Below are positions 2,607 through 57,900 of a stretch of DNA of 64,000 nucleotides, piece after piece; positions within the stretch are counted from its first letter, which is position 1, and each line of letters opens with the position of its first letter. The notes beneath the pieces were generated by a model. It was not told where the DNA came from and ran no database searches. It saw only the letters and a list, made by a program, of their open reading frames with translations. The stretch spans positions 5,125,096-5,189,095 of the forward strand of contig NC_087080.1 in assembly GCF_026151205.1 (NCBI RefSeq), read 5' to 3'. Position numbers and translations under genes: made by a program. This DNA comes from Bolinopsis microptera (Eukaryota > Ctenophora > Tentaculata > Lobata > Bolinopsidae).

Positions 2607-2608
2607 TA

Positions 2609-12900: not shown

Positions 12901-15900
12901 TAGATCATGCGTACAAATCTGTTACCCCCGAAGATACAAATATTCCGTTGATACATTTTTTCAATTTCAAAATATTGGTAACCAAACAGTGCACGTACAA
13001 AACAGTGCACGTGCGAGATGGTGCACGTGCAAAGTTCCAGTACTAACCGGATGGTAGCCATATGGTCAGTTAGCTCCTTGTTCAGTTTCCTGTTTACTTT
13101 GTCCAACTCATCGTAATCAGACTCCAGCTCCTTGTACTCCTCCAACAGGTCACCTTTTTCCCGCTCACATTTAGTGACCGTGTGTTCCATCTGGGACAGT
13201 AACTACTGTTATTATCTTCATTGCACAAATCATCACAAATCTGTTCAACTGCCAAATCATAATCTGCTAGAAAAATATTCCGACCTCACAGCCCTGTCCT
13301 ATCAATTTTCACGGTGGAGTGGTTGTTTTTAACTGGAATGTTTAAATATTTATCAATGACACAATCTAAGATGTTCACCTCGAGTTTGGACCGTTCCAGC
13401 TCCTTCTGCTGCTGGCTCAGAGCCATTAGAGCGTCCTGATACTTCCTCTTCAAGGAGTCGTAGTCAGCTCCTAATGTCGTCAGATTACGGGATCTCTTTA
13501 ACTCCTGAGCAAACGGAGGGGTTAATTTGTCTATCCCAGCTGCATCGACAGTTTTATTACTTTATAAGTAGCCATGAAAAATGAGCTATAATAGGTGGAT
13601 TAGATTTCGTGATGAATCGAATCAGTATACTTCATTTGGGCGTGGGCTTTAAATAGGTGAGGAATTATGTTACAACGATGTCATGGTTTATTCCTAAAAT
13701 AGAACGCAAAACGCTTAATTTCGCAACTCTTTGTAAAGTAATCTCTTTATCCAGTCAACCATTCGGTATACGATCTTTGCAGGAGATTTGACAAATTCTG
13801 TACAAAGATTGCAAATTTGAACTAGAAAATTTGTAGGTACAATTACGCAGCAATGTTACAACATCTAGGTGAATGGAACCAGGATATGGTTGTGCAGGAT
13901 ACTAACCCTGCCGATTGTGGTTCTGAGAGGGGGTCCACCATTAAATACTACCCAGCCGACATAATATTTTAAGTGCGGAGAATAATAGCTTAGTTAACGA
14001 TTCCTGCTTACGTTAGCTGGTTAATTTTAATTTTTTAGATGTCTCGTCAAATTCATTTTAACTTTAACTTAGAATTATGATTATAATTTTTATGGACCAT
14101 TTAGTTGATACCTTGGCTTTTTGTAAAATGCGTTGAGAAATTTAAAAAATATTGAATCCAGTAAACCAAAATTCTCTTGCTCTTAATATGCTTTTAAAAT
14201 TTGATATTTATAAATAAATCGATCGCTTCAAAGAGTTTTGTAGGTATTCTGCTTGAGTGCCACCTTGCAATTTGTGCAATATCTACTAGTGCTATCCGCC
14301 ATAGTTAACAGATATTCCGTGTTGCAATACGAATGAAATTAAATATTAATGAACATATTCGATTAGAAGGATAAAAAAGAAATCTTGGATGGTCAACGTG
14401 CAAAAATTAATTATTTAAAAATTTGAAAGCTGCAAAAAAATTGCAAAACAAGAAAGTCTGAGGATATATTTTGTTGTGAAAAATCGATGCCGACCAGCTA
14501 AGTCAAAGTAATTAGGTACTGTCATATCAAACAAATCCCAGGGTGGCCTGAACAAGATTTTTAAAATTTTGTTAAAATAGAAAACAATACAATTTTCCAA
14601 CATGTTAATAGTTAAGATTCGTGTATATAGCGGGAAAAGATCGAATATTTACGAAACGTGTTTCTGTGCGATCTCGGAAACTTCTTATTAAAACTTAAAT
14701 ATAGGTGCCCAGATTTCTATGTTTTAAACTATAAGAATACTTGTGATGATGGTATCTCTAAAACAAACAGCATACAACATACTACATACCTCATGAATCA
14801 TCCCCCTCATAACACTTACCATCATCCTCCACTATACACTCTGATTTCTCCGGCATCCTCCCCTAGGACTGCCATACCCCAGAGGCAGGCAAAGCATCCA
14901 AATGCTATCCTCTTGTGGGCCACCCAGGCGCAGCCAGCCTCTCTAAAAAAAATACTGCCTACCTCTTCCAAGCTGTTCTTCATTTGCTCCTTATACTCCA
15001 TTAAATCCTTTTGAAGGGCTCGTGTGTCAGCATCTCTTCTTTCCTGTGTCTCCTTCATATCACTGTTGGGAGATTGGAATGTCAAATATTTATTTGAATA
15101 ATTATTTTTAATATTCAAATAAATTTTATTGAATTACCATTTACCTCACCAGATTTATATCAAAATAGGAATTTTATTTTTAAGTGGCAAAACAAACAAG
15201 AAATATAAGCATAAAAGTTAACCTGATCTGATGAAGGGAGTTAGCCAGCTTGTACTCGGCTGATTTGAGTTCGTCACGTGTCAGGGAGAGTTGGGATGTA
15301 GCCCCACTGACTTCCCGGGTCAGCTCCTCAACCTTAGTATCACTCAACTCCAACTAAGACAGGAGGGGGTCAGGTATAACCACACTAGGCAGGTGTTTTA
15401 TAGTCTTGTCAGATGGGATACACCCCAGACAAAATGAATTACATGTACACAACAATAGTACTAGCCAATGAATCATCCACCCAACCTATTCGCAAAAATT
15501 AAGATCACCTTCTTCATCAGAATCTCTATGTCCCGATTTTTATCATTTAATGCGGACTCCAATCTCATGACACAGCTCTCGTTGTCGATCTGTATCTTGT
15601 TCAGAGCTAGTTCTTTGGTCGTGATGGTGTCCTTGTGTGACACCAGGTCTGATTCCAGTGAGAGGATGTCCTCGTTTCGAGATTTTGCCTGAGAGTTAGA
15701 CAAAGATTCATAAACTGTCTAGGTATTTAGATTTTATGTAAAATGCGCTTGAATTTTATTTGCATTTTTTCAAATAGGTTTAGGAACACATAGTGTCATA
15801 ATATGTAACTACCTAATCATGAAGAATATGGAACCAGCACAACTATTTAAATATTACAGTCTATAACCTTATAACCTGCTGCTGATGTCACTAACTGTTA

Positions 15901-18900
15901 GTCTCCCCACAACTATCACAGCCTCCCCACAACTATCGCAACCTCCCCACAACTATCACAACCTCCCCACAACTATCACAGCCTCCCAACAACTATCACA
16001 GCCTCCCAACAACTATCACAGCCTCCCCACAACTATCGCAGCCTCCCCACAACTATCACAGCCTCTCCACAACTATCACAGCCTCCCCACAACTATCACA
16101 ACCTCCCCACAACTATCACAGCCTCCCCACAACTATCACAGCCTCCCCACAACTATCACAACCTCCCCACAACTATCACAGCCTCCCCACAACTATCACA
16201 GCCTCCCCACAACTATCACAACCTCCCCACAACTATCACAGCCTCCCCACAACTATCACAGCCTACCCACAACTATCGCAGCCTCCCCACAACTATCACA
16301 ACCTCTCCACAACTATCGCAGCCTCCCCACAACTATCGCAGCCTCCCCACAACTATCACAACCTCCCCACAACTATCACAGCCTCCCAACAACTATCACA
16401 GCCTCCCCACAACTATCACAGCCTCCCCACAACTATCACAACCTCTCCACAACTATCACAACCTCCCCACAACTATCACAGCCTCCCCACAACTATCACA
16501 GCCTACCCACAACTATCACAGCCTCCCCACAACTATCACAGCCTCCCCACAACTATCACAGCCTACCCACAACTATCACAGCCTCCCCACAACTATCACA
16601 GCCTCCCCACAACTATTACAGCCTCCCCATAACTATCACAACCTCCCCACAACTATCACAGTCTCCCCACAACTATCACAGCCTCCCCACAACTATCACA
16701 GTCTCCCCACAACTATCACAGCCTCTCCACAACTATCACAGCCTCCCCATAACTATCACAACCTCCCCACAACTATCACAGTCTCCCCACAACTATCACA
16801 GCCTCCCCACAACTATCACAGCCTCCCCACAACTATTACAGCCTCCCCATAACTATCACAACCTCCCCACAACTATCACAGTCTCCCCACAACTATCACA
16901 GCCTCCCCACAACTATCACAGTCTCCCCACAACTATCACAGCCTCTCCACAACTATCACAGCCTCCCCACAACTATCACAGCCTCCCCACGACTATCACA
17001 GCCTCCCCACAACTATCACAGCCTCCCCACAACTATCACAGTCTCCCCACAACTATCACAGCCTCCCCACAACTATCACAGCCTCCCCACAACTATCACA
17101 GCCTCCCCACAACTATCGCAGCCTCGTATTATATTGATTATGAAATATGTATGGGGCGGTGCTATATTTAAAGAGTTTGACCATTTAGCTATGCTCGACC
17201 CCTGGGTTCCCTCGATCACAGGTAGACTTCCATTAGTAAGCTGCCGGTATCAAGACAACAAATCTACAATCTTTACCAAATCAACAAGCTTTACCGGGAG
17301 CAGCCTTTTGCACGGACAAACCAATCAGAGACAACTTTTATGGTCACGTGACCAATAGTGCGACCATTAAACCAGCTACGCAGTGGTCGCACATTTAACG
17401 TTTGAGACGTTCAAAATTAAACAGAGAGCACACTGGCCTTGACCCCGGATGAGCAGAGTTTCCACTTTCCGGTGTGCTGGCTAGTGGCTAGCAGGTAATT
17501 AGCAGGTAATTAACAGGTTATTAACAGGCAATTAGCAGGTAATTAGCATGTAATTAGCATGTAATTAACAGGTAATTAGCAGGTAATTAACAGGTAATTA
17601 ACAGTTAATTAACAGTTAATTGGCAGGTAACTACAGTGGGTAGCAGGTAATTACCGGGAGGAACTTTAATGGTGAGTCATGCTGGAGTTGTCACTTTGTC
17701 ACTAAATGATTAAAACAATTGTACTTCATGTGCAGATTTGTAGGGATATTAATCGCAGAGCACCGTCTTTCCAATTTTATAATTTATTGAAGTTGTACTT
17801 GCGTTGTGCAAGAAGCATTTTCAGTTTACAACCATGTCAATTTCTACAGTGGTTTTCTACAATAGTTTTTCACCATTTTATTTTAATTCTAAACTGCCCA
17901 GGGAATGGTTTGTACTTAATAAGAACCTAAGAACCTAAATTTGTGATAAATCTGCTTGATAAACCTTTACAAATCTTGGCCATTACTAATTTTATTCCAT
18001 GAAAGTACAACGCGTTAACTTTTATTAAAACACCTTGGTCAAACTTAAATTATACTGTTAGTGATCCTTTGTGCAAAAGTATAAATAGTATACTGACTTT
18101 GTTAATTGAAGCCATGTCATATTTCAAGATGGCCCACTTAGTGAGGTGCGGTTGGGAATAGTTTCTGTGATGAGAAATCTAAACTCTAAAGTAAGTGATG
18201 ATCTAAGTCAGAGACAAAAATATGGTCCCGATTGCAATGTCTGCAACATCTGCAACAGTCAAAGGTGTTTCTTTAAAAAATGCTCGCCTCAATATATTGC
18301 TCAATAATAAGTGGATATAACTGACCAGATTTTCGAATCTGAAAGCTATTTTCAGATAAGAGAATGTGGTTTTGAATAGGTGTTAGCGATTCAGTTTTCT
18401 TCCTGGTTAGACAGAATAAGGAGGGATATAATTAGGGACAATTCACACATTGCGTAAACCAAGCTGTGGAGTTGGGGAGGGGGTTTGAAAACGGTGATGC
18501 AAATGTAATTTCTACACAATAGCAAAGTGAACTGTGGCTTACCGAGTTGATGTGGAGAGGTTGTGTAAAATAGCCAAAATAGCCGGTGTAATATCAAATA
18601 TGTAAACGAGCTGATATGGAGATATAGCCAGCGTAATATCAAATATGTGAACGATCCCTAATTAGATCTCTCTAAAAAGCAGCACTTGCCCAATGAGAGT
18701 TAACTCTGGCTTCACAAACTTACTCTGGGCCAGGGACATGGTTGGGAGTAGTAGCTATAGGATCCAGAGTAAGGGGTATACATACCACGTGACTGGAGCT
18801 TACTATCTGAGTATCACGTGACAAAAGGGAGGTCTCTGTAAGCAAACTGTGGACTGGATGTTCCCCAGCTATGTGGACTGGATGTCTAGTTCCCCAGGTA

Positions 18901-36900: not shown

Positions 36901-39900
36901 CCACTACCTTGCTTAAGAATAACAAATTCGGATTACAAAAAGTTTGGTTAACATCATTTCGAAATTTTGAACACTTTTTTACTGATTATGGATCGGGGAT
37001 ATTTAGAATTAGCAGATCCGGTCTTAATCTTGTTTCAAGCAACAGATGTAGTAGAAGTTTAACTAAAATCAAGAATATCCAGAAGTCTTTTCTCCCGGAG
37101 TTGAAATTAAATTAGAAGGATTTAAGAAATATATGATTTCTAAAAGTATTACAAATGATTGCTTTTTTTGGAATGGTTCTAATGAAGTTTTAGTAAGAAT
37201 TGAGGGAGCCAGTTATGTCAATAATAAAGAAAAACATAATGATTATCTTTGGTTTCATCCTTATGTGGTAAAGAAGCGTTTTCTAAATCTTTATTCCACT
37301 GGGAAGTTTGATTAGGTTTTCAAAATAGGATGATGTTTTGATACATTTAAAATTATTTGTATTAGATAAATAATTAATGTTGGTGGAGAAATATTTATGA
37401 TATATTTTTTCACATAGTGCGATGATATTTTGTAGACATGTGTGGTGCTTTCATTATTATTTTACTTTACTTTACTAATTACTTTACTTTAGTCAATTTA
37501 TGTCAACTTTTTTAAAAGATGGTTATGCAACTTCGGTTATATTAATTGCAGTTCCACTATTTTTGTTAATCACACTGATTAGATGGGATGGTAAACGAAT
37601 CACACTGCTGAGTTACTTATCACACCCCTGATCATCTTCATTTGTACTGTCCACGTGACTATGAGAAATCAACTGTCTTCTCAACATGATCCTGGATTAT
37701 AAGCCCAAATCTTCAATCCTACTGAAGCTCATGTCACGGGTTTACTACTAGACTGAGTACGGGAACCGGTCACGAGGGCGGAGAACACAAGGGCGGTACT
37801 TTTTAAAAGGGCGGACACGAGGGCGAATCACATGAATCACTTTAACATTGACGAACGGGTTTTTGATTTTCTCAACAGTCTGATTAAGGTTAAACTTAGC
37901 TCGAAGAATTGGATCTACTCACTTGTAAATTTGAAACAAAACATAGTGATGTGACAAATAATCACCCAGATTTTAACGCGCCAAAAATTGAGAGATTTTC
38001 CTTAAATATCTCAGCCAACTCAGCAGCAGATTTTGGGGTTTGGTAACGTGCTTAGACCAATCAAACACTGCGTAGATCTTCATCTGACAAACCTGGCCTT
38101 CAAAATATCGCAGTCGCTGACGCTACGGTTATCTGGGTTTAGATCAGGGGTAGTACGTACCAAAACGGGTATTCTCTTTGGGTAGACGAATTTCACTGAA
38201 GTGTGTTCACTCAATTTCGAACCATCAATCCTTTCGGTTAAAACGACCATCATTTGGACGGTTTTTGTTTCGCCTTCGTGTCCACACTAAAATGAATCAT
38301 GTTATTCGCCCTCGTGTCCTCCGCCCTTTTAGGAAAGTCCTTGTTTCCTATGCCCTAGTGTCATATACCCGTTGAGCACAATCAAACAATTTGAAACATT
38401 TGATAAAAGAGAATTTATCTGTACCTGACACTTCTGCCACCAGTGTATTCCTAAAAATATGTCTGGATTGTGGAATGTGGATAGCAGTGCCGGGTAGAAT
38501 TGAAGTACTAGGCGTAGGTCATGCAGGCTTTGTTCAACCAAGCCACATTCCTTTAAGCGTCACATACAGCTAATAACCGCTAATGCTTTTTAATTAAACA
38601 ATCGAATTAAATGAACGGCTAAATTAAACCATATATTTAAGATACCATTTTTATACTGGGGATTCATGTGTTGCTCAATGCTCTCACACAATTATGTATA
38701 ATCAGATTTTAAGACATACAGGGGAATTAATGATTGAGTTCTATTATAGTTGATCTAAAGAAGGCGTGATGACGAGGAATATGATTGCCTCTAAACCGTA
38801 CAATAGAAGGTAGACACAGACTTTAACTTGGACGGCGAACGGCGCATTAAACCTGTTTACCTGTTTTCTTTTGCGATCACTTGAGGAACAAAATCTCTGC
38901 AGCTACTCCTATGACGATTTCTCATAAATACTCTAACTTTACAGAGTACGGTATCAAGAATGATGCTGAACGTTTGGTTTGGGCGGGATGGCTCATGCTT
39001 ATACTCCTTGTTTCTGTCTTGGGTAACACAACTATTCTTGTTGCTTCCATCAAGTATAAAGCCTTCAAGCTTCACGGAGTAATTGTAACATTTATTCAAC
39101 ACATCGCTGTAAATGACCTGCAAATAACGATAGCAATGGTCTTCACACAGATAATTAACTTGTTGACCAACAAAAGAATCTTCAGCAGCAAATTGTGCTA
39201 CGTAAGGGCCAACCACAGTCCCTTTTGTAATTCAGTAAGTTTGTTTATGGTTTGCGGGATGACGGTCAGCAAATACCTTCTGATAAAGTTCCCATTAAGA
39301 ACAAGATATTGGACAAGAAAACAAGCCCAACAGCTCTGTGCTTGTCTCTGGATATTATCACTTGCCAGTCCAATCTTATCACTTGCTGTGGATCCGATGG
39401 ACGTCTACTGGGATAGTAGACTTTACACCTGTTTCAACGCCTTCTCATCTCAAATCTGGAAAATACTACTCCCAATAACAGTTGTAATTTTAGCGTTCAC
39501 ACCGGGCATCGTGACCGTTGGAACCTCCGTCATGCTGGTGAGACATTTATTTTATGCAAGAAAAATAGCAAAACGTATAGGAGCCAATGTTCCTTGTCGA
39601 GGGATTGTGACGGTGCTTCTTACCGCCACTGTGTACATCATGTCATTTCTACCCATTTCACTTTACTTGGTTATTCACTCAAGTTTGAAGGACGAGCATG
39701 TTTCTACCTACCTCTTCCGAGTAGGGGATACCTCTAAATATTTTAACGTCGTGGCAAACATCTTCATCTACACCTTCTCGGTAGCCAGTTTCAGGGCATT
39801 TCTCATAGACAAGGTCAAGATGGTAAAATCATCCGTGTACCAGACTGCTTCTGACGCTGTCAGTGATAGACGGGCAACGTTTAAACTTCGGCAGACTGAG

Positions 39901-42900
39901 ACTGAACTCATCTGATCACGTGACAGTTCTGAGTTCACTGTTTTACTGATTTTAAAGTAATTTCGATGGGACATATTTGATCGATGAGTAAAATTTTTCT
40001 ATTATTAATTCTTATGAAAATAACCATTAACCAGGTTACTATTTAGAAACGGCGTTGTTGTGTCAAATGACGCTCAAAAACCTAAAGAATTGTTCAAACA
40101 TATACACATACAGAAATAAACAATATTCTGGAAGTGATGGTTTGGGTCAAAGTGCTCACCTCTTCGTTCAAAAAGTTGTTTTGTAGTTTCAAATGTTGTG
40201 CCTCTTCGCTTTTAGTTTTCTCTTCGCTGTTGTATTGCGTTTCTTTTTCCTAATAACACGATCGTTATTTATTCTTTAAAGTCTATTAAATATTCGATTA
40301 AAAGTAAATGATAGTATTCATTGACTATTAGAGTAAGAAAGCTGTTAGATTATTATATCCAAATTCCAAGAATCTTATCGCAAATCACTAACTAAACAAG
40401 GACAACTGGTTAGTGTGTTTTGGCGAAACAACATAAATCAGATCTAGTTCTGGAACAATCCCGCGTTGTCACGTGACTCTGATCCAAACTGCCACAAAAA
40501 GTCTCACGACATAAGAAGTTGATAGATTTTTAACACAAGCACACATAATTTAGCATGCATTAGCAGCTCTGTCTGTCTGCCAGTTCCAAGTAACTATCAA
40601 CAGCAATAAAATTACAACAATTCACCGAGGATAACGATTCAGTTTTGAGGATAAAAACTATAAGGATCTTCAGTCAAGCAGTTGACTTTATTAAAGATGA
40701 CGTTATTAAAGATGATCTCATGTTACCGTTATTAGACTTCAACTACATGGACATTTAGAACAAATTGGTAGGTAAATGGAGGTTATAAAGCAAGTCAGTG
40801 ACATTGAATCGTTCTCGACTAGACATTTTTTAATAAATTCGACTGTTTGCAACCGTCTGTTGTTTATGACGCTTCCGACGTCCGATCGTTCTTTGGCACT
40901 AAACCATAAAAAGGAAACATATTGTATCAATTTCTCAAGCAGACCTAAATTCGGAAAAAAAATGGGACTTTTAAACGAAACCAAAACAAGAAATGTAGCG
41001 AAAGATACATTGGCAACGCCTAGGGATAAAACTTGTCTAAAAACTAATATATCTCCACACAAACTACTTCTCCCTCTGCCAAGCATGCTTGCCAGACATC
41101 AGCAGTCACGTGACCATCACCAACCAATTAGAACGAGGGGAGCAGTTGATCGACCAATAAGCAGCAAGCAGTGAAGACTGAAGAGGATTGACCAATAAAA
41201 GGTGAGGTGGAGACATGTACTATAGAGTTCTAGTAAGCAGGCTGTTGATCTGCAGAGATCAGTCACGCTCTGGGTGGTAGAAGACCGGAACAGCTTCTCC
41301 AATTACACGTCAATTACAAATGTTTCATCTGACACGTGCAGTAATTACATAGTGCACGCACGTGGAGCGAATTTAATGCACGTGCGGTGATCACAACTAG
41401 ATACTATCAGTGTGATCTGTCTCAGTGCTGTCAGATGAATGATTGCTTGATGTTTGGAGTTTTTATCCCACTCATTGTCTACCTATTATTTTACTTGTGG
41501 CAATAATGATTATTGGCCTTAATTGTTAAAGTTCAATTAAGCTCGAGGCAGACCACTGGACGGATAGGATCACAAGTCAATATTTGCAGCCCTGCCCAAC
41601 GTTATTAGTTGATAGATACAATAGCCCAACGTGACTATATCAAAGGATCGGTTATCAAGTTTAGTCTGAATCTGAGAGGACTTCAGCCTCTCAAGGAAAA
41701 AAATCTGCCAGAGCTAGAATGTTGAACTCACTATTTGTATCTTGAGCTTTTCGATGTATCTATTTGCCTCTGATAACTGTATCTCTGTGTCAGATATCCT
41801 GTCCTCCGATGTTCTTATCAACTCACACGCCTGATGGATTATGTTCGTAATGAGTGGGAGTTACCTGGAACTACAGATAACAGATAAAATTAAGATAACA
41901 GCTTAATCTTCAAAATATTCATTGTTTAACTTCCGAAATCAAATACAAATATTCACCTTTTCAACGAGGGTGGTCACTGTTGCTGAAGGATGAGTGCTGG
42001 GTAACGCCCGAGCCAAATCGTTCTCACATTTTTGTAGCATGCTTTGCACGTGCGAGTAGCGCGTCTCCGCTTCACTTATCTCAGTTTCAAGATCTCGGGT
42101 ACTACGCTGGTACTTCTTCAGCTGGAGGGATTATTAGATAGGTTTCAAATGGTCAGTTTTACGAAAAGCTTTTTAATGAACAAAGCTAAAATAGCGTAAC
42201 AGCCGGCTGATATCGAAGGCTGAACATATAAAATTATCCATAAGATTATTTCTAAAAACTTGTTAGTGAGTCTAAAATATAATTACGTAATAGTCTCACT
42301 TTGAGTAAATTTATAATTTCTTTTATTTTCTTACACCACTTAGACATTATAATTAAAACAATTTGAGGCCACTCACAACTTAGGCCCGACAATACCTAGT
42401 TAACCGAAACCGGACGACGCCTCTGGTGTCCCCCTGGCCCTCCCTGTAACACCGAGTGGGTAAATGTCATTACATATTATTATCCTAAAACAACGTACAG
42501 AAAATTAATTTACATTGTTGAATCTTTGAAAATTTGGCTCTACCCCACTCGATTTGATTATTCTGAACATTTTAATGCCCAAGATGAGCGCTTAATTCCC
42601 ATCAGAAGTTGAGATATCTTGAAATAAGTGTTTGATTACATCCTGGGAATAGAGCTTTTCCAAATCATATTGCGACAAATTGAATAAGTATGTCTTTAAA
42701 CCAATTTTAAACATACCCACTGTATAACACATTTTAACTGATGGTGGTAGAGTGTTGTAAATTTTGGGTTTAATAACTCTGAAAGTTCTTTGCCCAGCAT
42801 GGAACTTGCACGAGGAACAATAAGTTTGAAAGAGTGCTACATGATAGATAAACGAAAACGTTTCTGCTATTGTCCATGTACTCATGAAATGTGTACATGT

Positions 42901-45900
42901 AGATTGATTTACACGACAGATTCCAGTACATGGTATGCTAGACCAAGTTGTCCGCTGCCGCCAATATACCTTAGATACTAAACCAGGTAATATGATTACC
43001 ACTGATGATCCAACTGTTTGGGTAGCAGATGATGAGATGAAACCATCTGTTTCAGTAATAAACAAATGGATATATTGTTTCGAGCTAAGCTGTCGACACA
43101 AAACTCCTCAAGGGAGTTTCCAGTTTAATTAAATAGTGGTCGTATTTAAAATTAGGACCTTCTGTCAAATAAGAAATTATAAAATCATAAGGTCACTATT
43201 TTTATTTTCCAAAATTATCTTAATTCCTTGATTATTGTATCTCAATTTACCCAGTACACTATATTACCTGAATTTCAAGATCATGATAATCAATACTTTT
43301 GCTCTCTGGTCTCTGTACTTTAGATAGCAAATCATCCCGTTCTGCTGCAACTGTAACAAATCTCTTTTCTTGAGCAGACAACTGTGGAATCAGGTTTCAA
43401 GTTCAATGAAAATGTACAATTGTATACAATGTACAATTATATACATGATAAGAGTGATACCTGAAAAGATTACGAAGAAAAGATATAAACAAATTATAAA
43501 AGCGCTAATGCTCAGTTAAAAGCCCCTTTTTAAGAAATACAGTTAATAAACTAAGTTTCTAAACATTTATGAGATTGCGCACTGTGAATACAGATATGCA
43601 GCTTACGTCTACAGAGGGCATATCTGCATGCTTGATATTCAGCTAGACCCTCAGACATATTTCAAAAACCAACCTTCTCCTTGAAAATGTTAACCTCGTC
43701 CTCAGAAGCAGCAAGTCTAGTTTTTAGTCTGTCTATTTCACCTCTTCCTTCAGTGGTGCTGGTCATCTCTCTCTGGTACAGATCAGCTCGTTGTTGGGAT
43801 ATCTGGCAGGAGGAGGAGGAGTTTAATTATATCTGGAGACTGGGGGCATTTGTTTAAAACATTTAGGTGATTACGAAAAGTTGATTTCCATGTGTAAATC
43901 GTCTTCAGTTAAATTATATGTTCAGTAACAAAAGTTATCGTATCAGTTATAACGGTCATGGTTAAAAGAAACTTGATATGCGAATACGAGATAGGTGGCT
44001 CTGGGTTATCATAACTTGTAGGTTACTTATTTTGTAACTGTGACAGACTCTGTAACAACATGTAGGACCTACATGTTGTAGGTGCGGTGATACTTTGTAA
44101 ATATTGCGATTCCGCACCTGCTCAAAACTTGCTTCGAATGAAAAAAAGGCGGGATGACGATAAATTTTATATGCCATTATTTTAACGGCATGGCATTGTA
44201 TGATATTTTAAATCATTACAGTTTTAAACATTTTACAGTCGTTAGCACTGATTCAGCTGATTTGTCGCTCAAACCCTGAATTACTATTCGTTACCCACAC
44301 TCCTGCACAGAAAACAAAAATCTCATCTGCTCTACTCTAAACCTGGTAATTTGTACCACAAGTTTGAGTGTATTTTAGTCTGTTGGGGTAAAATTTCAAA
44401 CCAGCCCCCTGATCCTAGGTTCGAATTTGCCGCTACTCCAGGTTTTAGAGGCAATGTACTCCTCTCCCCATTGGGTGTTATTACCCACGTGACTTAAATA
44501 CCGCCCCGTAATTGGTCCCCTACTCGAGCTAACTATCACATCATTGGTTGGAGCAGGGATAGTGTATTACATGGTGGGGTACAGGTGGCGTTGTGACAGT
44601 TATAGGTCGCAAAGTTGGTCACGTGGACTAGTCACGTGGGCGCTGAAGTCACGTGCACAAGTCAGGTGGGTGCTATAGTTACGACTAATACATTCGACCG
44701 TTAGAGAGGGAGGTGGAATGATTGTAATGTAATGACAATGTGTTGTTTAACGCTGATTGAAGTAATTATGTTATCTAATTATTGACCCATGCACCCTGGA
44801 GACATGGCATTAGAGGTTAGGGCAGCCAACAATGTGATCGCTATTGGAGATCAGCGGTCTAGAAAGTTCAGCTATAATAACACAGATGCTACTTTAGATG
44901 ACAGGTATCAAATCAAGGTAAAGTTTTTTCTCGACTGTTTCCTTTTTGAGTTAGCACTGACTATTATATGCCTAAACACAGCAGATTAACCGATGGCTAT
45001 GCCTTTTTAGTACATCATGATTTGACTCATGAAATCAGGTAAACTTTATAAAAAAGTTCTTGAGACAATCAATTAAAAGAAATCAAGTTTTAACCTGCAT
45101 GTCTGTAGCAACTTGAGCTTCTTTTAACTGTCCCTGTAGATTAGCTATACACTCCTGTAGCTCTGATATCTGAAAATACGAGGATTAAAATTTACCATTA
45201 AGAGTATTGCTTATTAATTGAGGTTGGCAATGGAACTGCGTTTCTCCCTTTTCGCTGAGCTTCCCTATTGTGCCACAATCCATATATCTATATGGATTTA
45301 CGGTAACTAAGCGGCCAGGTAGCGCAGTTGGTTAATCATCGGCTTTGTAATCGTGAGGTTGCGAGTTCGAATCCAACTGCCTGCCTAGTCGTGGGGTGAG
45401 CGTCGTTGACGCTCTGCTAAGGATCCCGAGTGGTCTATGTAGCCCCACGGTTCACTCAACCGAATGCTCGAGAAATCGGGTGTGAGGGTTAAATGAGGAG
45501 CTGTGCTTGATCAACACAGCGAAGCTTCGGGCGAAGAAAGTGTGGCATAGTGCCTTAACCGTCGCTGGCCTTAGGAACGATCCTTCGGCTTCCTGTAAAG
45601 CTCTTCCTTGAAAGTGCTGGTTTACATTGTAATGCAGGTAATGCCGAAGTAAAATAACAAAGGTGGTCGACTCATTCGATGGCCTTGTTGCGTCGCAACG
45701 AATCCTCATAAGATAAGATAAGATAAGAACTCGGTAATCTGCCGATGCACATCGGCAGATTATTTACGGAATAATATCTTGGAGACGTCATCCGGTATCC
45801 CGCTTGACGCTTGTGACATATCGCATTATGTGTCCGATATCCACTGACATTGTTTTGTACGGTGCCTATTTAAATATTTAGTATCAGAATGAGAGCAACC

Positions 45901-48900
45901 ATAGCTCAGACAAATATTATCTTAAAATTGATTAAGAATATTCCTGGAATAAACTCGAAGTTTCTAATATTTTTAAGAGGGCATGAAGTTGTGGTTACAA
46001 CTGAGATTGAGTAAGTGCATACTGCATAGACACCATTCTGAGCGGTGTAGGGATGGGGGTAAAATTTATTATTATAAAATGTATTATTATATTATTATAT
46101 TGAGAGTTGCGCTCGATGAAAACATCAGAGTTTGCTGATTTAGAGCTGAAGAAGTTCGGATCTGTACGGGTTTTGGTGTGGAAACGTGTCGTGTTGGATT
46201 GAGGGCGCTAGAATTTGGATTATGGTTCGAGTTGGGTATCTTAGTTTGGGCTACTATCGTGTCTTAGCATTAGTAGAATATTGTAGTAATAGTAGGAAGC
46301 TTCCTCTTTTAGTTATCTTTATTTTAGTGTTTATCTTTATGTAGTAATAAGTTTGCCATGTATAAGTGTCGAAATCTTTAATGACTGATTTTCACTTCTC
46401 TTAACAATTTACAAGTAGGATGCCTCACTCGCTATCTTTAGGATATAACTTGCGTTAAGAAGGACTCTACAGTCTGAGCTCATATTATATGATCGTTTTG
46501 GATCAATTTTCATTGAAATGAATGAAGTTCCACAAAAATATTGCAGGATTTTTGGTTTTGTGGCCAGATCCTCGAATGGCTCATGAAAATAGTACACTAC
46601 AAAAAGAGATTAGATCTATAGTGAGTGAGCTATTATAGCCCGAATATTTAATTAGTCGAGGTCCTGATCCCCTCTTTATTAGCGGTACAGCCACATTATT
46701 TTCAGTACAGATTTTACTGCAGCACAGTCGGGACGCAACCCCCATGCAATCATGTCATTTTCAGAGCTATAACGAGAACTGCCATAATTTGGTGAGTCAC
46801 GGCTTCTGTTCATCTTATGTTGTACTAATAGTTTTAATACTTTCAACACTACTATATAACAAATAATTTTAGGCATGGCTACCGATGAGTAATCCGTTGG
46901 AGTAAAGTCTGCCGGTGTCCTGGGTGTGATGGATCTGAGTTAGATGGCAGGTTGTGGAGGTGGTAATCGTTTCTTCCTATCGCCCTGGTAGTCTTGTACT
47001 GCCAGGGCTCCTGCGGTCTGGTACGAGGTTAGTTTAATTGTTAGAGATCTAGTGATGTTTGAAATTTGTTAACTCCTTTTAGCTACTTCTCCCTTAGATA
47101 AGTATTGCATTCTTTCTCTGCTATACAGTTCTTTACGATAACTCTGTTCATTATAATTCAAATTTTCTCACTCAGAACTATAAATCTCTGGCCTATTGAC
47201 TGTTTCAGATCCAGATTGCTAGGGTTTATAACGGTGCCACTGAAACATCCTGCTGTTGATCTCTTATCCGGATCACCCAGTCTCCTCCCGATCCTCCCAC
47301 ACTTCACAACAAGATGCCAACACTGCCCGCCAACTTCCTCGCCCTACTGCAAAACTTATCTCTTGAAGTAAAGCAACACATGCATACCCTCCTCACTGAG
47401 AGTATCCTGGACAGTCTGAAAGAGGAAAAGCTTGCTTCAAAAATTGAACGGTTAGATGAAAAGAAGAAGGAAAAGAAAACGAAGAAGGAAACTACTGTTC
47501 AAAATGTCTCGTATAGCCCACATGCGCTCATAGAGCACGTTCCAGTCCTCCCTGGAATGGATGAAAATCTATTCCAGAAAATCACAGAAGAATTAGATTC
47601 AATGAATCTTGAAGGCAAATCTAAAAAAGTCCACACCCTATGGCTAAGCCCTTCATCAGAAGACTACTGCTTTGGTAACATAGTTAACAAGCCACATCCC
47701 ATCAACAACTTCCCTAGCATCTTTAAGTTGATGGGACTTATTAATGACCTCCCCTCCACCACCAACAACATGGATGCTTGCCTTGTTACTAGGTACGACA
47801 CTCAGCAAGCTAAGTTAAGCCTCCATAAAGACGATGAAGACCTAATAATATCACAGTCCAGCTCCATTTGCACTTACTCAATAGGGGCTCCACGGTCACT
47901 TGAGTTTGTACTGGATACAACCCAAGTAGAACAACGCACAACTAGGGCCTCTAGGTCAAGGTCAGCCCAAGAGTTGATTAACGCAGACTTCACCCTCCCT
48001 GCCACCAATGGCACACTGAACATCATGAAGCCTGGTGCACAGCAAGTCATGAGGCACAGGATTGCCCCAGGAGTTGCACCTTCTGACGATGAAACTTGTT
48101 GGAGGTATAGTCTCTCCTTCAGAAAGTTAACTACACCTTCCTCTTCCTCTTCCCCTTCATCTCCTATTCTTCCCTCTCCTACATCCGACAGTCCTAATAA
48201 AGTATCCCCAAAAGCCCCCATCACAGACTCTCAAAAACACCAGAAGTCTATCATTCTCATTGCTGGTGACTCCTTTGCTGCTCGATTGGACGCTGATCGC
48301 CTCAGTAGAGGTAAAGAAACTGTCACCAACATAGCTAAGGGTGGGCTTAAGATCTCAGCTATACAGAAATCTATTGAGGCCTTTCATACAAAGAACCCTC
48401 TTGTGCAGGTAAAGAAACTGTTCTTAAGCTTCGGTGCCAACGACATCCGGTACTGTACCCAGGGTGTCAATCATCTCAAGACCCCTGTGAGTGACCTTAT
48501 GAAGACAGCAAAAAAACTTTATCCAAATGCACGTGTTTTTGTACAAGCTATTCCACCAGTCCACCCCAACGGACAAGAGAAAATCCCTGGTAATGTTTGT
48601 GCTATGAATAATTTGATCTTTGATCGCTGCTCTAGGCATAAACTGTTTTACCTTGATGTTTTTTGGGCATTCTTAGACCGCTATGGAAACAGAAACGAGA
48701 GATTATTTCCTAAGTGTGACAATAGGGGCTTTTATGATATTCATCCCAGCCCCAAGGCTGGGATGCCAGTGTTGGCAAAGTTCTATCTCAGAATCATACA
48801 CTCAAAGTGGTTTAATCCAATGGGATACTGATGTGGTAATCCAATTCAATATTTCAATTTTTCATTGTCTGCATCAGTATCCTATTGGATCTGATCATTT

Positions 48901-51900
48901 GGATGTTATTTATATATTGTATTGAAACGAAGTGATAGCATAATGTATGTTACTTCATATTATAGCACAATACCTAACAAAACACAACGGCGAGACACAA
49001 TCCTGTTAATAATATACTTAAAAGTTCCATGGGAATATCGACTCAACAACACCGTGTTGCAACTGGTATGTTTTCTAGGTATGTTATCATCAGTAAAAGT
49101 AATAGAGGTAACGGGGAAAATTTGTTGTCCTGTCTTCTGTCTCGTCATATGTTATGTGCTCTATTGGGTATATTTTATTTTTATGTTATTTTGTATATAT
49201 TTTCTTTGACTATCGATGCTAATATACTCCCTAGTGCTCCCTTCCAACCTAAAATACACTCTGTACCATGTTTGAGGTCATCCATAAATCTTTACTTTAT
49301 GGTAATATTTTGTACCATTTTTCTCAGACACTTTAAACTTGTGTACAGGGGGGAGAGGGGCATTGGGACAGCCTTAGCTGCAATTTCTGTAAAATTGCTA
49401 TCGACCACAAAAACCGAACTGTCACCTACCATGTCACCAAAACAGACTGTTAAGTTACTTTTTAATATTACCAGCAGCTGGCTTGGGGTCATGTCTAGGT
49501 GTGGTCTGGTTTTTCTATCTCTCCTTAATATTTCCCTGATAGTAATTTGTAATTGTTCCTTACTGAACCCTGGACCAAATTTATCCGTTGTTTACAATAA
49601 TGTCCATGGTTTCCTAAATACCCGCGATCTAGCATCAGGAACACCACCACTAAATATGACCAAGATACATGAATTCCATGGTTATATCTACAAACATAAG
49701 CCTCACATCATTATTCTAAACGAGACATGGCTGAAAAATTCCATTCTCAGTAATGAGGTGCTCCCCGACAAATACAAAGTATTTAGGCTTGATCGATCCT
49801 TAAGATCGCATCCAGTGGATGCAACCCAGCCCAAGAAATTCAGAAAAAACGGTGGTGGTGTTCTGATTGCCCATAGAACAGACATTGATATCTCGAGTCT
49901 AAAGTTCTCAAAGGTTAGTGTTCAAGCTGAATTATTATCAGTCATAATTAAGACTCAGTGTGGAAGAAACTTTTGCATATCTACATTCTATAGAGTAGGA
50001 ACTCTTGGCTTAGATAATTTTGAATCTTTCAAGAAACATTTTGTTACGTTAGCATCTGCCAGAAAGTTGCAAAGACACATTCTGGTAGGGGACTTTAATT
50101 TAGCTTCGATTTCCTGGCCAGATGGTCAGTCATCTTGCCAGCTACATTCCAGCTTTGTAAATTTTCTCACTGATGACCTCGGACATACACAACTTATTAG
50201 CTCCCCTACTCACAAGTCAGGCAACACCTTAGATCTTGTGTTCACTAACATTCAGAACCTTATTAAGAATGTTAAAGTTTTAGATCAAAACGAAATGTGT
50301 ATGTCCGACCACTTTTGTATCACATTTGACATTGATGTTAAGACCAAGTATATTAAGCAGCCTAAAAGAAAGATCTTTAATTATAGTAAAGGTGATTTTA
50401 GGGGCCTGAATTCTGAGTTATTTAGCATCGATTGGGATAGTATATTTGAGTGTAATGATCCTTATCTTGCCTGGAGTCGATTCAGAGGAGTTCTTGATGC
50501 AGCCTGTGACCGATGGATCCCTAAAAAGACCATTAAGTCTCAGTTCCAGCCCCCATGGTATGACTCCGAATGTGATCGTCTCCTACGAAATAAGGAGAAA
50601 TGGAGAATAAGGCATAAAGGGAGCAACTCTGAGTCTCATAAACAAAAGTTTCGTGCATTTCGAACAAAATTTAAAAATATGATGGACGAAAGAATGAGAC
50701 TCAGTGTTGAGGATGACTCCGATGATGCTCTTATCTCCAAGAAATTCTGGACCTACGTTAAATCTAAATCAAAGTCAACCAGGATCCCTGAAACTGTTAA
50801 ATATCATAATCGCTTTCGAAACAATCCATCTGATCAAGCTGCCCTTTTTAACGAATATTTTTATGAGCAGTTTTCTCAAGAGAGCGATTATGGCATTGAC
50901 ATTGATTTTCGTGATGATTGTTTTTCCAGTCTTGTGTTTAGTAAAGAAGATGTTCTGTTGATTCTTAAAAAGTTAAATCCTAACAAGGCCCCTGGCCCTG
51001 ATGGGATTCATGGGAAAGTCCTCAAAAACTGTGCCCAAAGCCTTGCATACCCACTTAGTGTTTTATTTAACCTGTCTTTCTCAAGCGGATGCATACCCCC
51101 TGATTGGAAGCTGGCACTTGTAGTACCAGTACACAAAAAGGGCGATAAGTCCTCGGTTGAGAACTACAGGCCTATCTCGTTAACATCTCTTGTAATGAAA
51201 GTCTTTGAAAGGTGCATAAAGACTGCATTATACGCTGCATGTTCTGATCTGTTGGATGACCGACAACACGGTTTTGTTAATGAACGTTCATGCACAACCC
51301 AAATGATACCTTTCACGGACAATCTTGCACTTGCACTGAACAACAGGTCCAGGACTGATATAATATATTTTGATTTTGCGAAAGCTTTTGATAGCGTTTC
51401 GCATGACCTCATTTTAAGTAAATTAAAGAATATTTTTAATGTCGATGGACTAATGCTTAAATTTATCAAGTCCTATCTTGAGGGGCGACAACAACAAGTA
51501 GTGATAGGAGGCCAAACGTCTTCCTCTCTACCAGTTCGGTCTGGTGTCCCTCAAGGTTCTATACTTGGCCCTCTATTGTTTGTAATATTTATAAATGACA
51601 TGTTCTCCTGTGTCTCTGAAGGCACCAATATCGCCCTTTATGCAGATGACACTAAAATTTGGAGGGAGATTCTTGGTTACCCTGACCATCACATAATCCA
51701 AAACGACATCAATAGATTGTATGATTGGTCAGTGAGAAATCGAATGAAGTTCCACCCACAAAAGTGCAAAGCCCTCTCTGTGTCCCTGCAAAGAAACGTG
51801 CTGGATAACTTGCCATTCAATACCTTCTTCTATAAACTTTCTGGAAGTGATATTGACTTTGTGCCCTCTCAGTCAGATTTAGGAGTCGCAATAAACTCCA

Positions 51901-54900
51901 GGTTTAATTGGGGTGCACAATGTAAAGCGCTTGTTTCCAAAGCTACCTCCAGACTTGGACTACTTAAGAGAACATGTCATTTCACTACTGATAAAAGGCA
52001 GAAAAGATCGTTCTATTTGGCGTTAATTAGGTCTATATTTGAACATTGTTCTGTCATATGGTCCCCTCAATCTGCAACTCATCTTCAACAGTTTGTTGCT
52101 ATCCAAAAGAGGGCTATTAAATGGATCAATGGTGAACCCTACTCCAGTTATAATGACGATAAACTTGCTACAGAGCAAAAGAAGCTAAATATTCTCCCTG
52201 TCATGCAGAAGTGTATTTATAACGATCTTATGACCTTCTATAAAATAGTGAATAGCATAATCCCAGTTTCGCTTCCTACTTATATAGTCCTATGCCGTCC
52301 AGAGGGCACCCGATACACTAGGCACAATGCTCAAATAATTGATAGGTCGGATACTTCAACTTACATGAGTACCACTGTGCCCTGCTCGGATGCCTTCCGA
52401 AATAGCTTCTTTCATAGATCTATGCTAAAATGGAATAGTCTACCAGTATGTATCCGGCAGTCAGAGCGGATTTCTACTTTTAAGGCCAATCTGATCAAGT
52501 ACCTCTGGGCTGCCGATACAGTCTGGCCAGACTAGTCTCAGAAATGTGTTTTTGTTGGTTACAATTCTGTCCGTCCAATTTCCTATCTGCTTGTCCTTCT
52601 TTTTCTTCTATCAGTTGTGACGGAATTGTAATGAACAAAATCCATATATAATTATTTATGATATGTTTGATTTCTTGTTATTGTATGTCATTCAAATTTG
52701 GTAGACGGCCCCAACGTTAATGTGGCTTTTGCTATGTGTTGGTTCAGCCGAATTAATTATTATGTAATCAAGTTTATTTTTCTCTTTTAGTTAGTTGTCA
52801 CCCGGCCAAACATTAAGCAACTTATATTGCAGCACCATTTTTCAATTAGAATATTAAAATATGTCATTGTAATTTTGCATGGCTGAAATGTAACGCTTGA
52901 TTTGTATATATAATAATTAATTGAATTTTCAAATAAAAAATGTTGTTCAGATCCCAAGATATCATAAACATAAAAATATATTTATATTTCAGTGAAATTC
53001 GTCATATTGAAATGTTGAAATTTTAGAAATAGGCTATTAAATGCAAATGTGATAATGAACAACATGTTCAGTGATTTAAAACACAAACAGAACATGCAGA
53101 AAACATACATTTTTAAGTAATTCAAATGAATTATCATAACTGAACAGTTGATTCAAACATATAATTGCATAGTAAATATGTGCAGAGATGATGTCATGAA
53201 AATGAATCTCAGTCGATTATGCCTTACTTTTTCTACATATTGTCAAGTTACCACCCTGACTGCAGTATCTCAAAAGTAACCCACAAGTCCACAAGAAAAT
53301 ATGCCACAATTTGTGCTGGCTTCTGTCCCTGGATGCTTGAAGGTGTACTGGATAAGCGGTCCGTTTCAGATGATTTCAAAATGATAATCTTCTCTGAATG
53401 TTTTCGACCAGGACAGTCCAAAGCTGCAATTATGATATCTAAATACCGTCGCGACATCTTTTGTAACTTTTTATCAATACAGACGTTCTCAAGTGTAACT
53501 AATAATAATTTTACATCGTCTCTATTAGGTTCATTCTTATAAAAGTGTATAGTAATAGTTCGACAATCACAAACATTGACATTACGCGATCTTCTGTAGT
53601 ACCTTCATTGATGTCTGTGCAATAAATCGTTACCTCTCATTTTGTCAAAAAGATGTCTTGCTTTTGTTTTTATTAATCGTTTTTTTCTGCGAGAGCTGAC
53701 TAATCTCACTGTATCTATTATCGAATATCGATTGATCGCAGGTCGGTGACTGATATTTTTGACAGGCTTGATATGGAGTCAAAAACGTCTTTTCCGTTCA
53801 GAACAAAATCATACTATACTTTGAAAGATAAATTTTTGTCCAGTTCTTTTTGACAAGTCAAATTTAGCAGTATAGCTTCAAGGATGAAGGAACACATCAA
53901 TATAAGCAATAAGCTCCTCCCTGCCTCCCAGTTTTTATAACAGATCTATCTGATCCGTCTCCAGTTTGTTGATATCTGACATGCGGTAGAGATGAATTAT
54001 TGTAAGGAGCTAAAACTAGAACCAGTTCGTCATACGTCTTTCTCCCCATTTTTTGAGAATAAACCAGCACCCGTCAAATAAGCCTGACAACTTATAACCT
54101 CTGTTAATTTTGCTTCTCCAACGAACTTTTACATAAATCTTTAAGCCACTCCACTTCAAACACAACAGCTAGCTTATTCATCTCTCTGAACATGGCATCC
54201 TCAATCTCATCAACTTTTACCAACTGTCTATCCTCGAGTACATCTAAAAACAGAGTCACAGCTTCAGGTGAGAAATCTTCCATGTCAATCTCATCGAACT
54301 TCATTTCATCTATGAGATATCTAAACATGCCACTGTTAGTCTTTCTTTTGGGACAATTAAAGGATCCCCATTTGTAATCTTGATGACGATAGTTTTGTCT
54401 TCCAAGCTGAGTTCTGGGATGTTGCCAACTTAAATGTTTAACATAAGTTAAAACAAACTGATATACGTTACAAAACTGACAAAACTATAATTATTGAAAA
54501 CAGCTTAAAAGAATCTAAAAATGAAGGCATCGGAACAACTTCTTCACTACTCACACACACACACGAGTAACAGTGCAGCATAGATAATACTGAACTTCAG
54601 AATGAGATTGAGGAGAATGGCCAACTATCGAAGTAGATTAAATTCAAAATGCAGGAAGAAATCACGTTATAAAGGTTAATTATGAATTCAGTTAATGAAT
54701 CTGATTTCTATCCTAAGAATAAGATATCATAATCGATAAAGTGATCGAAAAATGTATAACAGCTATCTTTTTGTTGAACAACTTATGTAATTTCGATTAT
54801 GTTATATTCACATTTTATAACAGATTCTATAATCACATCTTATTCCCTGCCGTTTTCTGACAAATGTGCTTAAAGACCATTTTTGAAATTCTGAATTCTT

Positions 54901-57900
54901 TAACCCTAATTTATTTTTTGGGGCAAGAACTATCCCTGAAAATCATCAGATAATATTAAAACCAATCGCCAGCCCCCTTTTGGAACCACCTAAAATGCCA
55001 AAATTTGTCAAAAAAATGCTTAAAAACCTCGGATTTTAAACATTTAAGTGGTCTTTAAGGACTTTTGTCAGAAAACGGCAGTTCTGGTTTAATGCATCAA
55101 TATGTCAATACAGGAATGAGGTAACCTTCTTACTACCTCGTCAAGTTATTCAGTTATACACATAGATATAATATGTGAAGGCGAACCGGTCACAAGGGCG
55201 AAAGTCACGAGGACGTAGGTCACGAGGGCGGAAGTCACAAGGGCGAAGTACCCAACCTTTTAGGAAACTTCCGCCGTTGGGTCCTTCGTCCTCGTGACAT
55301 CCGCCCTCGTGTCCTATACCATGTGAATTTGTTTGCAATAAAGTCACAATTACTAGGTTTACATGAGAGATCTTTTTACGAGGTATGTATTGTCTTATTG
55401 TCCCATTTTTCCATCTTGGAATTTTGCCAAGCCTCATGGAGTTGCTAATTCTACTTTTTAAGGCACACTAACCTTATCAGCTGATAATCATTGATTATTA
55501 ATGTAAATATTGTTAATTATGAATTGTCCCTGTTATTCGTTTGTTTGCTTTAGCAAACTCTCTGATCACGTAATTGTTCACATAATAAATAAAATTTCAC
55601 TTTATAGTTGGAACTTTCACTAAGATGACATATAATTTGCTAGAGCTGAATCAGCTTATACTCTAGTTCACAACACTAACAACGCTTCAGAAATTGTTAT
55701 TTTAGTGGACATGGTTATGCCGTTAGGATTCTAGTCTATAACCAAAGAGCATACTGTATACAATATTACCTCCGTATATAATATTACCTCCGCACTCCGC
55801 AGCCTTAAGGCTGTGTCACAACTCGATGTCTAATATGTATGAACATTGAACAATTGGTTTACGCCACCTTGTTTATACCATATTGACGCCATTTTTCCTG
55901 ACTTAACATTGAGTGAAAGTACAATCGTCTATTTGAAACAGGGACAAAAGAAAATCACGATTATTTAGTCCAAAAATCGCGGCGGAAATCTCGAAAATCG
56001 CGGCGACAGATAATGTATTTGCAGAGCAAAGTTAAATTTCATATATTCGTTAACTAGCTTGTTAGTCTAGTTAGATTAGCTATAAATACTGAGCAGAGCT
56101 TGCTTTTAGATCAGCCCTTCCAGACGATCTCGAAAGTTCCTCCCAGCTCGCCAGAACGGAACTCGATGTTCCACTTCGAATATGTACTCATATACATAAT
56201 ATTATTAGTTAACTTTTGTCAATACTTTACCATACTACACGTAATCAAACAAATAAACCCTGTTTACAATGAGATAACATCACGTGTTTTGATAACAAAG
56301 CTAGAGACTAAGGGGTATGGAGCACACTGCTTTTCATGTGTTTTTTTACCATGAGTTCCTTTTCACAAATTGTACTACTAGTCTTAACTATAATTCTAAA
56401 GATTATCTTTTGGGGGACCAAGGGCTTATCTTCCGAGTATAAAGCAGACACTCCTGAATTTTAAAGTAAAATAGGCCCCTAACGAAAGTTTACCGTACAC
56501 AACGAATCCAAGGCCCTGGACGTAGCTAATATTTTTGAAAGATTAGACAGATTACTTTAACCACGAGTATATAACGAAACTGCGAACGAATTAATTAAAA
56601 ACCTTCCCTATAACGAACCTAAGCCACAAGATAAGTTTTTTAATTCGTTTTAACTTCATTCGATAAACAAAAACGTTGAATGTATTAAGTGGACCAAAGA
56701 GAACTTTGCTCTATGCAATTTATAAACTAAAAATTACAGCAGATCTGAGAATTCTAGTCGACCTCCAATGTAATCATAATAAACTATATTATAAATAGAA
56801 TTAAATGAGTAGTTTCACCTGTATATCATGGGAAATCACGTAATTTACTTTTAAGGCACATCCCAACCCATCATGGGTTTACTACTACTTCAACTATCAT
56901 TACTGGTTAGGGATTCGGACTACAAATAACAATATGTCATGATACAGAATTCGTGATAATCAAACTAATTACAATTAACAATCAACACAAATCACTTTTT
57001 ACATATCCACATACCTGTGATAAAGACTGCTGCTTTGACTTTTTCTCCATGTTCAGCCTCATCTCCGACTCTTCATTGGCATCGTTAAGGTTCTGTATCT
57101 CATCCGCGGCGTGGGTCACTTTGTCGTGAAGCACCTTGCGCGCGTCGTGTATCGCGTAAACTTCCGTGTCGCTCAGGATCGGGTAATCTTCCACTCTGAT
57201 CTTGATGTTATCAGTTCGTGTGTGGAGTTTTAGAAAGTTTTACCGATAACATTTTAAACATATTTCAGTTATTCGATACTCATTAACAGTAAGAACTCTA
57301 TTCTGTGCAGCAGTTGTGACTGCCAAATTTCTGGTGACAATCTACGTTATAAATAGGGTGAAGATTGTAATTTTATCGATTGATGATTTGCTGCCAATAA
57401 CAGGCCCTAGAATTGGATTTTTTAAAAACTGCATATCATAGACTCCCTCCAAAGTAAAAGTGTATAACTATAATAGAGGCCTTACTGTAACGGTATATAA
57501 AGCTGTACGAGAATTATTAAAAGTGTATCATGGTTCTCTGAACAAGACGATTCAATCTGATTTAGCCAACCTCACGATTTATGTGTTCGTTGACGGGTGT
57601 TACCACAAGAGAATAGAGACTTCTCACTGTAGCTTGCATTCCTTCGACATCACTCACATGCGATATGTTGACGTTCTGAAGATATAAAGGTCTTAAATTA
57701 CCATAAATTGCCATCTAAAAATATTCAAAAAAAGTCAAATGTTTGATGTTTATAAACATCAAACATTTGACTTTTTTAACGTATAAATACGTATTTTATA
57801 ATGTATTCATCCGCTTAATAATATGATACGATCTACTTTCCATCAGAAATTTGGCAATTGAGAAGGATTTTATTTGAAAATAATCTAAGACTAACATTTT

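Follow-up and report, generated by a model that had tools for sequence, protein, structure and literature searches.

The window analysed here, a 64,000-nucleotide stretch of contig NC_087080.1 (positions 5,125,096 to 5,189,095) of the ctenophore Bolinopsis microptera, carries on its forward strand a complete LINE of about 6.1 kb (46830..52940), hereafter type A, whose ends, taken from those shared among its copies, are good to a few bases. A 5′ untranslated region (46830..47313), beginning where the match among copies starts, leads to ORF1 (47314..48831), a single frame of 505 codons running unbroken from the ATG at 47314 to the stop at 48831. A spacer of 197 bp (48832..49028) separates the ORF1 stop from the start of ORF2 (49029..52535), an open frame of 1168 aa with an APE endonuclease domain (residues 191-428, 49599..50312; PF03372 and PF14529 above cut-off) and a reverse transcriptase (RT) domain (residues 702-918, 51132..51782; PF00078, E 5.2e-30). 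Both the unbroken ORF1 and the intact APE/RT ORF2 downstream of it had been described in a sequence-only reading of this DNA, and both stand. The 3′ untranslated region (52536..52940) ends with an AATAAA at 52932 and an A-tail.

ORF1 is composed of several parts, delimited by the open frame, conservation and an AlphaFold model. The model predicts a long N-terminal helix with a lysine-rich end (residues 17-52, 47362..47469), possibly a coiled coil, followed by an AlkB-type 2OG-Fe(II) oxygenase domain recognised by profiles and fold (residues 67-274, 47512..48135), a Ser/Pro-rich linker predicted to be disordered (48136..48234; pLDDT below 50 at residues 278-295 and 302-306) and an SGNH/GDSL esterase domain (residues 308-500, 48235..48813).

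Type A is a multi-copy APE-type LINE of B. microptera and shows the hallmarks of such elements, with dispersed copies, common ends, truncated copies and an A-rich 3′ tail. Indeed, the match starts at window positions 46820-46833 in 19 of 29 other ORF1 loci of the genome, and in eight of ten copies whose 3′ flanks were fetched it ends at 52938-52942, by the AATAAA, the other two giving no match. The A-tail varies in length among these eight copies and is very short or absent in two (L040 and L045). Target-site duplications were not evident in eight copies: the longest flank words in common measured 5-8 bp, not above those of cross-copy pairs, which averaged 6.3 and reached 9.

Elsewhere in the window, a sequence composed of a tRNA-like head (GGCCAGGTAGCGCAGTTGGTT...GCGAGTTCGAATC) and a tail of GATAA repeats lies upstream of the LINE (45311-45730) and looks like a tRNA-derived SINE; ARAGORN found no tRNA over the window. 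A 428-codon frame at 15885-17171 is a tandem repeat (SQPPHNYHSLPTTI-like), that is, a minisatellite, and at 57728-57777 two 25-bp arms form a perfect inverted repeat with nothing between them. Finally, a 344-codon frame at 38881-39915 has several hydrophobic stretches and resembles a 7TM receptor, with no significant Pfam family.

The sequence-only reading had proposed that ORF1 fuses an AlkB-type demethylase to an SGNH esterase. Searched alone, the window protein gave no AlkB match in Pfam and no significant match among PDB sequences (the best, at 0.19, being the zebrafish LINE esterase), and reached E. coli AlkB in NCBIfam under the cut-off (E 0.0019). We therefore turned to relatives. A search of 5.8 billion proteins, with 7992 candidates scored, returned 121 relatives of ORF1, 120 of which were listed. 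A precomputed PF13532 (AlkB) label is carried by 79 of these 120 and absent in 41, and rescanning ten of the labelled proteins placed all ten above cut-off. A profile built from 103 proteins (A1: the window protein and 102 of the 120 listed relatives) matched the solved structures of human ALKBH3 (1.5e-16), ALKBH2 (best 1.4e-12) and E. coli AlkB (3.8e-4), and in this alignment the AlkB residues of the window protein fall on the motifs of ALKBH3. The significant AlkB profile match was thus obtained through relatives and not from the window protein by itself. The AlphaFold model of ORF1 contains an AlkB fold, with ABH2 at E ~1e-11 and 18% identity and ALKBH5 lower, at E ~4e-9 and 12%. Together with the placement on the ALKBH3 motifs, this fold bears indirectly on whether the residues come together in an active site, a condition set with the earlier proposal. 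By profile and by fold, the nearest solved structures are ALKBH3 and ALKBH2.

The five residues named beforehand as the iron and 2-oxoglutarate set are in the order and places proposed. When the window protein is aligned to the 120 listed relatives (type A rows) and rows having a letter at the position are counted, their conservation is 96-100%. Of the iron ligands, H171 is kept in 115/116 rows, D173 in 116/116 and H248 (48055..48057) in 120/121; the acidic residue two past the Asp, E175, which completes the H171-K-D173-D-E175 segment (47824..47838), is found in 113/116. In the R264-x5-R270 motif (48103..48123) the 2-oxoglutarate arginines are kept in 116/121 and 121/121 rows, respectively. 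Profile, fold, conservation and selection (see below) together led us to reject a chance match to AlkB, and the assignment of this domain as an ALKBH2/3-type AlkB dioxygenase is confirmed by sequence comparison and structural modelling, on the strength of the relatives rather than of the window protein on its own. The domain is a putative demethylase, and any substrate named for it below is likewise putative.

The esterase part was recovered directly: the only Pfam profiles matching the window ORF1 are GDSL/SGNH ones (PF13472, best E 1e-9), with neither an RRM nor a zinc knuckle found in the same Pfam scan. With an SGNH domain above the profile cut-off in ORF1, ahead of an APE/RT ORF2, type A has a type IV (esterase) ORF1. 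Profile A1 also matched a bacterial sialate esterase (4.4e-11) and the zebrafish LINE esterase 4c1b (2e-9). As for the SGNH residues read earlier from the sequence, S320 (119/119), N376 (118/118) and H477 (107/109) held up well, and D475 is the weakest of the set (90/110). This Asp sits two residues ahead of the His (DIH, or DxH), unlike the Asp-x-x-His arrangement of ZfL2-1, described with D279 and H282, the Asp three before the His (PMC3905857). By analogy with the proposal made for ZfL2-1, the probable substrates of the domain are lipid or acetyl esters.

A search of the B. microptera genome with ORF1 gave 88 matches, 20 of them near full length with 94-100% protein identity (about 95-99% DNA identity over about 3.5 kb), the remainder being fragments and more distant families (37-51%). 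The frame is open in 19 of the 20 near-full copies, and none of the ten functional residues that were checked varies among these 19. Pooled over the open copies, pN/pS is 0.28 for AlkB, 0.145 for SGNH and 0.23 overall, values that the choice of open copies biases downwards. ORF1 has thus been under purifying selection. A decayed one-off capture was rejected on the basis of these matches, their number and near-full length, their open frames and the low pN/pS. Nor is the AlkB domain confined to one copy, a concern raised with the original proposal, since both the genome copies and the relatives retain it.

The fusion also recurs next to ORF2, a check proposed with the earlier reading. An ORF2 match lies 3′ of ORF1 in at least 16 of the 20 near-full copies (40 candidates scored). 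The distance from the last sense codon of ORF1 to ORF2 is 200 bp in the window; in 14 other near-full copies it is 197-206 bp, which makes 15/20 with this spacing; one further copy has a partial ORF2 match 659 bp beyond ORF1, and in the other four the DNA match extends more than 1 kb into ORF2. Relatives of ORF1 and ORF2 were also found on contigs of equal size (≥5 kb) in five pairs versus a mean of 0.6 with shifted lengths, a suggestive result superseded by the ORF2 matches beside ORF1 copies. In Mnemiopsis leidyi, the gene model P0149 (ACHWQZ_G001079, ‘hypothetical protein’) joins a type A AlkB/SGNH ORF1 to its ORF2 RT, the core of which is 76% identical to that of the window. No relative of ORF1 was confirmed in IMG/VR, prokaryote contigs or phages. 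Three proteins filed under bacterial MAGs (P0073, Gammaproteobacteria; P0191, Cytophagales; P0321, Saccharospirillaceae) resemble pieces of ctenophore-type elements and are perhaps contamination.

AlkB domains are not restricted to type A in this genome. A PF13532 search gave at least 151 matches (150 of 587 candidates scored); all 150 tallied are above cut-off and 132 lie in open frames of at least 400 aa. As all 20 near-full type A copies are missing from this list, the true number of AlkB domains must be larger. We fetched and inspected 20 of these places. In type B (L032, L034, L035, L051), ORF1 consists of AlkB and an SGNH-like domain; an RT lies downstream in L032, L034 and L035, with APE matched below cut-off only. 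Type C (L036) has the same pair of domains followed by a frame with APE, above cut-off, and RT. In type D (L053, L058, L059 and the cut L056), a PHD-like finger precedes AlkB and the SGNH-like domain in the first frame. The RT frames L061 and L062 follow ORF1, with APE above cut-off in L062 and none in L061. The finger matches PF00628 below cut-off (E 5e-4 to 7e-3), and the relative P0253 carries a precomputed PF16866. L053, L058, L059 and P0253 may represent a chromatin reader fused to two enzymes. With a type D ORF1 as query, the whole genome yielded 76 matches; five are full length (95-100% identity) and a few are badly decayed. The Mnemiopsis models P0296 and P0324 resemble type D. Type E (L033, L057) again combines AlkB and an SGNH-like domain; in L033 an RT frame of a different kind follows, and since APE is not matched there the label ‘LINE’ is less sure for it.

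In type H (L031, L039, L052, L054, L055, L060), an SGNH-like domain is followed by a proline/alanine-rich stretch and AlkB, the domains being split over two frames in L055 and L060 having been fetched without its SGNH part. One of these loci, L031/L063 (G000:C10:16871500-16886300), is a single frame of 3388 aa that runs from the SGNH-like and AlkB domains, their order reversed with respect to the LINEs, through DUF6570 and Helitron_like_N to a PIF1 helicase; with Rep (PF14214, 3.2e-19) and helicase (PF05970, 3.5e-22) in one frame, we assign it to the Helitrons. A GDSL match was found in eight of the nine first frames of types B to E and H that were scanned (none in L059). Every one of these matches (E 7e-3 to 7.5e-6) falls short of the Pfam cut-off, so that the SGNH call in these types is based on motif and position. 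A precomputed PF13472 is carried by several type D relatives. Two further places resemble host genes, ALKBH3 in the case of L037 and ALKBH2 in that of L038; the sequence fetched there (7.5 and 4.5 kb, respectively) contains no RT frame. At L050, an ALKBH3-like frame with the host-type R-x-N (L050:955-1842) and a separate SGNH-like frame about 700 bp on (2554-3300) could be a host gene or a further element type. Altogether, the AlkB and SGNH-like pairing recurs across several RT-bearing element types and a Helitron frame in one genome.

The RT cores of types A to E are 23-39% identical between types, indicating separate lineages. For the AlkB domains, we built a tree from 24 of 27 rows, all short and divergent sequences. 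Types A, B, E and H each occupy one side of a branch, and types C and D do not. The Helitron AlkB groups with type A (support 88/84), and a LINE-only clade excluding it is disfavoured, a mild result (p-AU 0.032); all AlkBs of transposable elements (TEs) are set apart from host ALKBH2/3 with weak support (56/76). A more regular difference lies in the host motif R-x-N-L-T-F-R, whose Asn is Ser in 119/121 type A rows: R-x-S is present in 21/21 aligned TE rows versus R-x-N in the three host-like rows. This Ser, position 266 of the window protein and next to a 2-oxoglutarate Arg, is common to the TE AlkBs. Among 97 type B to D relatives, six gave no readable motif set; in the other 91, Ser is found in 90 and the Glu of HxDxE in 83, the search having allowed E, D, N or Q at the latter position. 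The distal His is kept in 23 of the 24 aligned TE and host rows (Gln in P0124), an alignment that required HxD and R-x5-R and is thus no test of those two motifs. Each TE type has one or more members with Y-x-[YF], as in host ALKBH2/3-like proteins; it is absent in the type A relatives P0075, P0111 and P0124. These sequence relationships fit a single capture of AlkB followed by exchange between element classes.

Several known systems resemble type A in part. The type IV ORF1 of CR1/L2 LINEs, such as zebrafish ZfL2-1 (PMC3905857, PMC4120745), likewise has an N-terminal helical part, no RRM and an SGNH domain ahead of an APE/RT ORF2; type A differs in having an AlkB dioxygenase N-terminal to the esterase, and the main texts of these two papers contain no mention of AlkB or oxygenase. 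In the orchid Phalaenopsis, a Ty3/Gypsy retrotransposon also bears an AlkB (PMC9289625). However, this is an LTR element of a plant, with AlkB of m6A type in a separate extra ORF, and the open text mentions no esterase. The AlkB of plant RNA viruses (PMC544882) has the same HxD/H/RxxxxxR residues in a replicating RNA-based element and was proposed to shield the RNA genome against methylating compounds, but it is part of replicase polyproteins rather than of a LINE or Helitron, again with no esterase partner in the text available. LTR and Penelope-like elements of bdelloid rotifers with a GDSL ORF3 (PMC5408684) provide a precedent for one kind of enzyme ORF across unrelated retroelement classes of one genome; there the enzyme is GDSL or a DEDDy exonuclease, and AlkB does not occur in the accessible text. 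The cellular ALKBH3 and ALKBH2, the nearest solved relatives, with homologues L037 and L038 in the same genome, are free-standing genes with R-x-N-L-T-F-R where the TE versions have R-x-S. Among the matches listed in open-licence full text, none described an AlkB domain in the ORF1 of a LINE or in a Helitron. As far as these sources go, type A is a LINE with the known esterase-type ORF1 plus an AlkB domain, which neither of two main papers on such ORF1s mentions.

The recurring pairing of AlkB and esterase suggests that the elements bearing it mend their own genetic material or clear it of marks. Single strands are where N1-methyl-A and N3-methyl-C mainly form, and both block polymerases, including reverse transcriptase. 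Enzymes of the ALKBH3 kind reverse these lesions in RNA and ssDNA, and in ALKBH2/3 the acidic residue at the second position past the iron-ligand Asp contacts the N1/N3-methylated bases. The corresponding acidic residue of HxDxE in TE AlkBs is presumably of this ALKBH2/3 type. LINEs copy an RNA template and Helitrons move through single-stranded DNA, so that the two have a single-stranded intermediate in common but no shared RNA template; this speaks for single-strand repair rather than removal of an mRNA mark. Repair of N1/N3-methyl lesions in the single-stranded transposition intermediate is accordingly the role we consider most likely, a reading that may prove right or wrong in about equal measure; we rank it ahead because the domain is nearest to ALKBH2/3 in profile and fold, keeps the Glu of HxDxE, shares Y-x-[YF] with the host proteins in some members of each type, has a low pN/pS and recurs, with an SGNH-like partner, in types B to E and a Helitron frame. 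ORF1p would multimerise via its N-terminal helix and coat the element RNA, and the AlkB domain would oxidatively strip lesions of the N1-methyl-A and N3-methyl-C type from the single-stranded RNA template or the cDNA. Base pairing would be restored, reverse transcriptase would not be stopped and full-length copies would result; the Helitron AlkB would render the same service to a single-stranded DNA intermediate. The SGNH domain would act on lipid or acetyl esters, perhaps in a membrane-associated assembly, as put forward for ZfL2-1. Several points count against repair. The Ser in place of Asn near the 2-oxoglutarate Arg may mean that chemistry or substrate differ from those of the host enzymes, and the genome already possesses ALKBH2-like (L038) and ALKBH3-like (L037) genes. 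To these can be added the offset and less conserved Asp of the type A SGNH domain, the listed relatives lacking a precomputed AlkB label and the target-site duplications that were not evident.

Other roles have to be weighed against this one. AlkB might instead wipe regulatory m6A or m1A, with which the host would mark element RNA for destabilisation or silencing. Presence in many elements would suit escape from one common host defence, and the orchid Ty3/Gypsy AlkB, active as a demethylase in vitro, was presented as an m6A RNA demethylase (PMC9289625). Nevertheless, ALKBH2/3 come closest in sequence and fold, with ALKBH5 lower by fold, and we therefore place such erasure of RNA marks second; the acidic residue of HxDxE, taken to be of ALKBH2/3 type, and the copying of Helitrons, which does not pass through RNA, also weigh against it, so that it seems possible, if rather unlikely. 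Should AlkB act at the DNA level, removing 6mA or 5mC derivatives from copies or targets, it could relieve silencing or aid integration, and in type D the PHD-like finger ahead of AlkB could bring the domain to chromatin; the AlkB of a DNA transposon, the Helitron, is also in line with this. Yet no PHD match was obtained in the scanned ORF1s of types A, B, C and E, and ALKBH2/3-type enzymes work on N1/N3 lesions; we hold this role to be improbable.

It is also conceivable that catalysis is unimportant and that the AlkB fold is there to bind nucleic acid, standing in for the RRM or zinc knuckles lacking in esterase-type ORF1s. The Pfam scan of the window ORF1 is compatible with this, and esterase ORF1s in RepBase were described as having no structured RNA-binding domain (PMC3905857). 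However, a mere binding module fits poorly with the near-complete conservation of the five iron and 2-oxoglutarate residues in type A, with the distal His kept throughout the TE and host rows save P0124 and with the low pN/pS, and we regard it as quite improbable.

Returning to repair of single-stranded intermediates, a bolder version of it, which we hold to be doubtful, is that AlkB and SGNH form a mobile two-enzyme kit shared by ctenophore TEs and swapped between LINEs (class I) and Helitrons (class II). The kit would be kept because N1/N3 base methylation, either chemical or due to a hypothetical host defence alkylating foreign or single-stranded nucleic acid, hits single-stranded intermediates in these animals.

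If repair or demethylation of nucleic acid is indeed the role of these domains, methylated or alkylated bases would limit transposition in an animal. That AlkB is accompanied by an SGNH-like domain both in RT-bearing elements and in a Helitron of one ctenophore points to a common selective pressure on otherwise dissimilar elements; genes may also have been exchanged across element classes. Moreover, proteins named ‘alkylated DNA repair’, ‘hypothetical’ or ‘uncharacterized’ in ctenophores and metagenomes may be explained by such elements.
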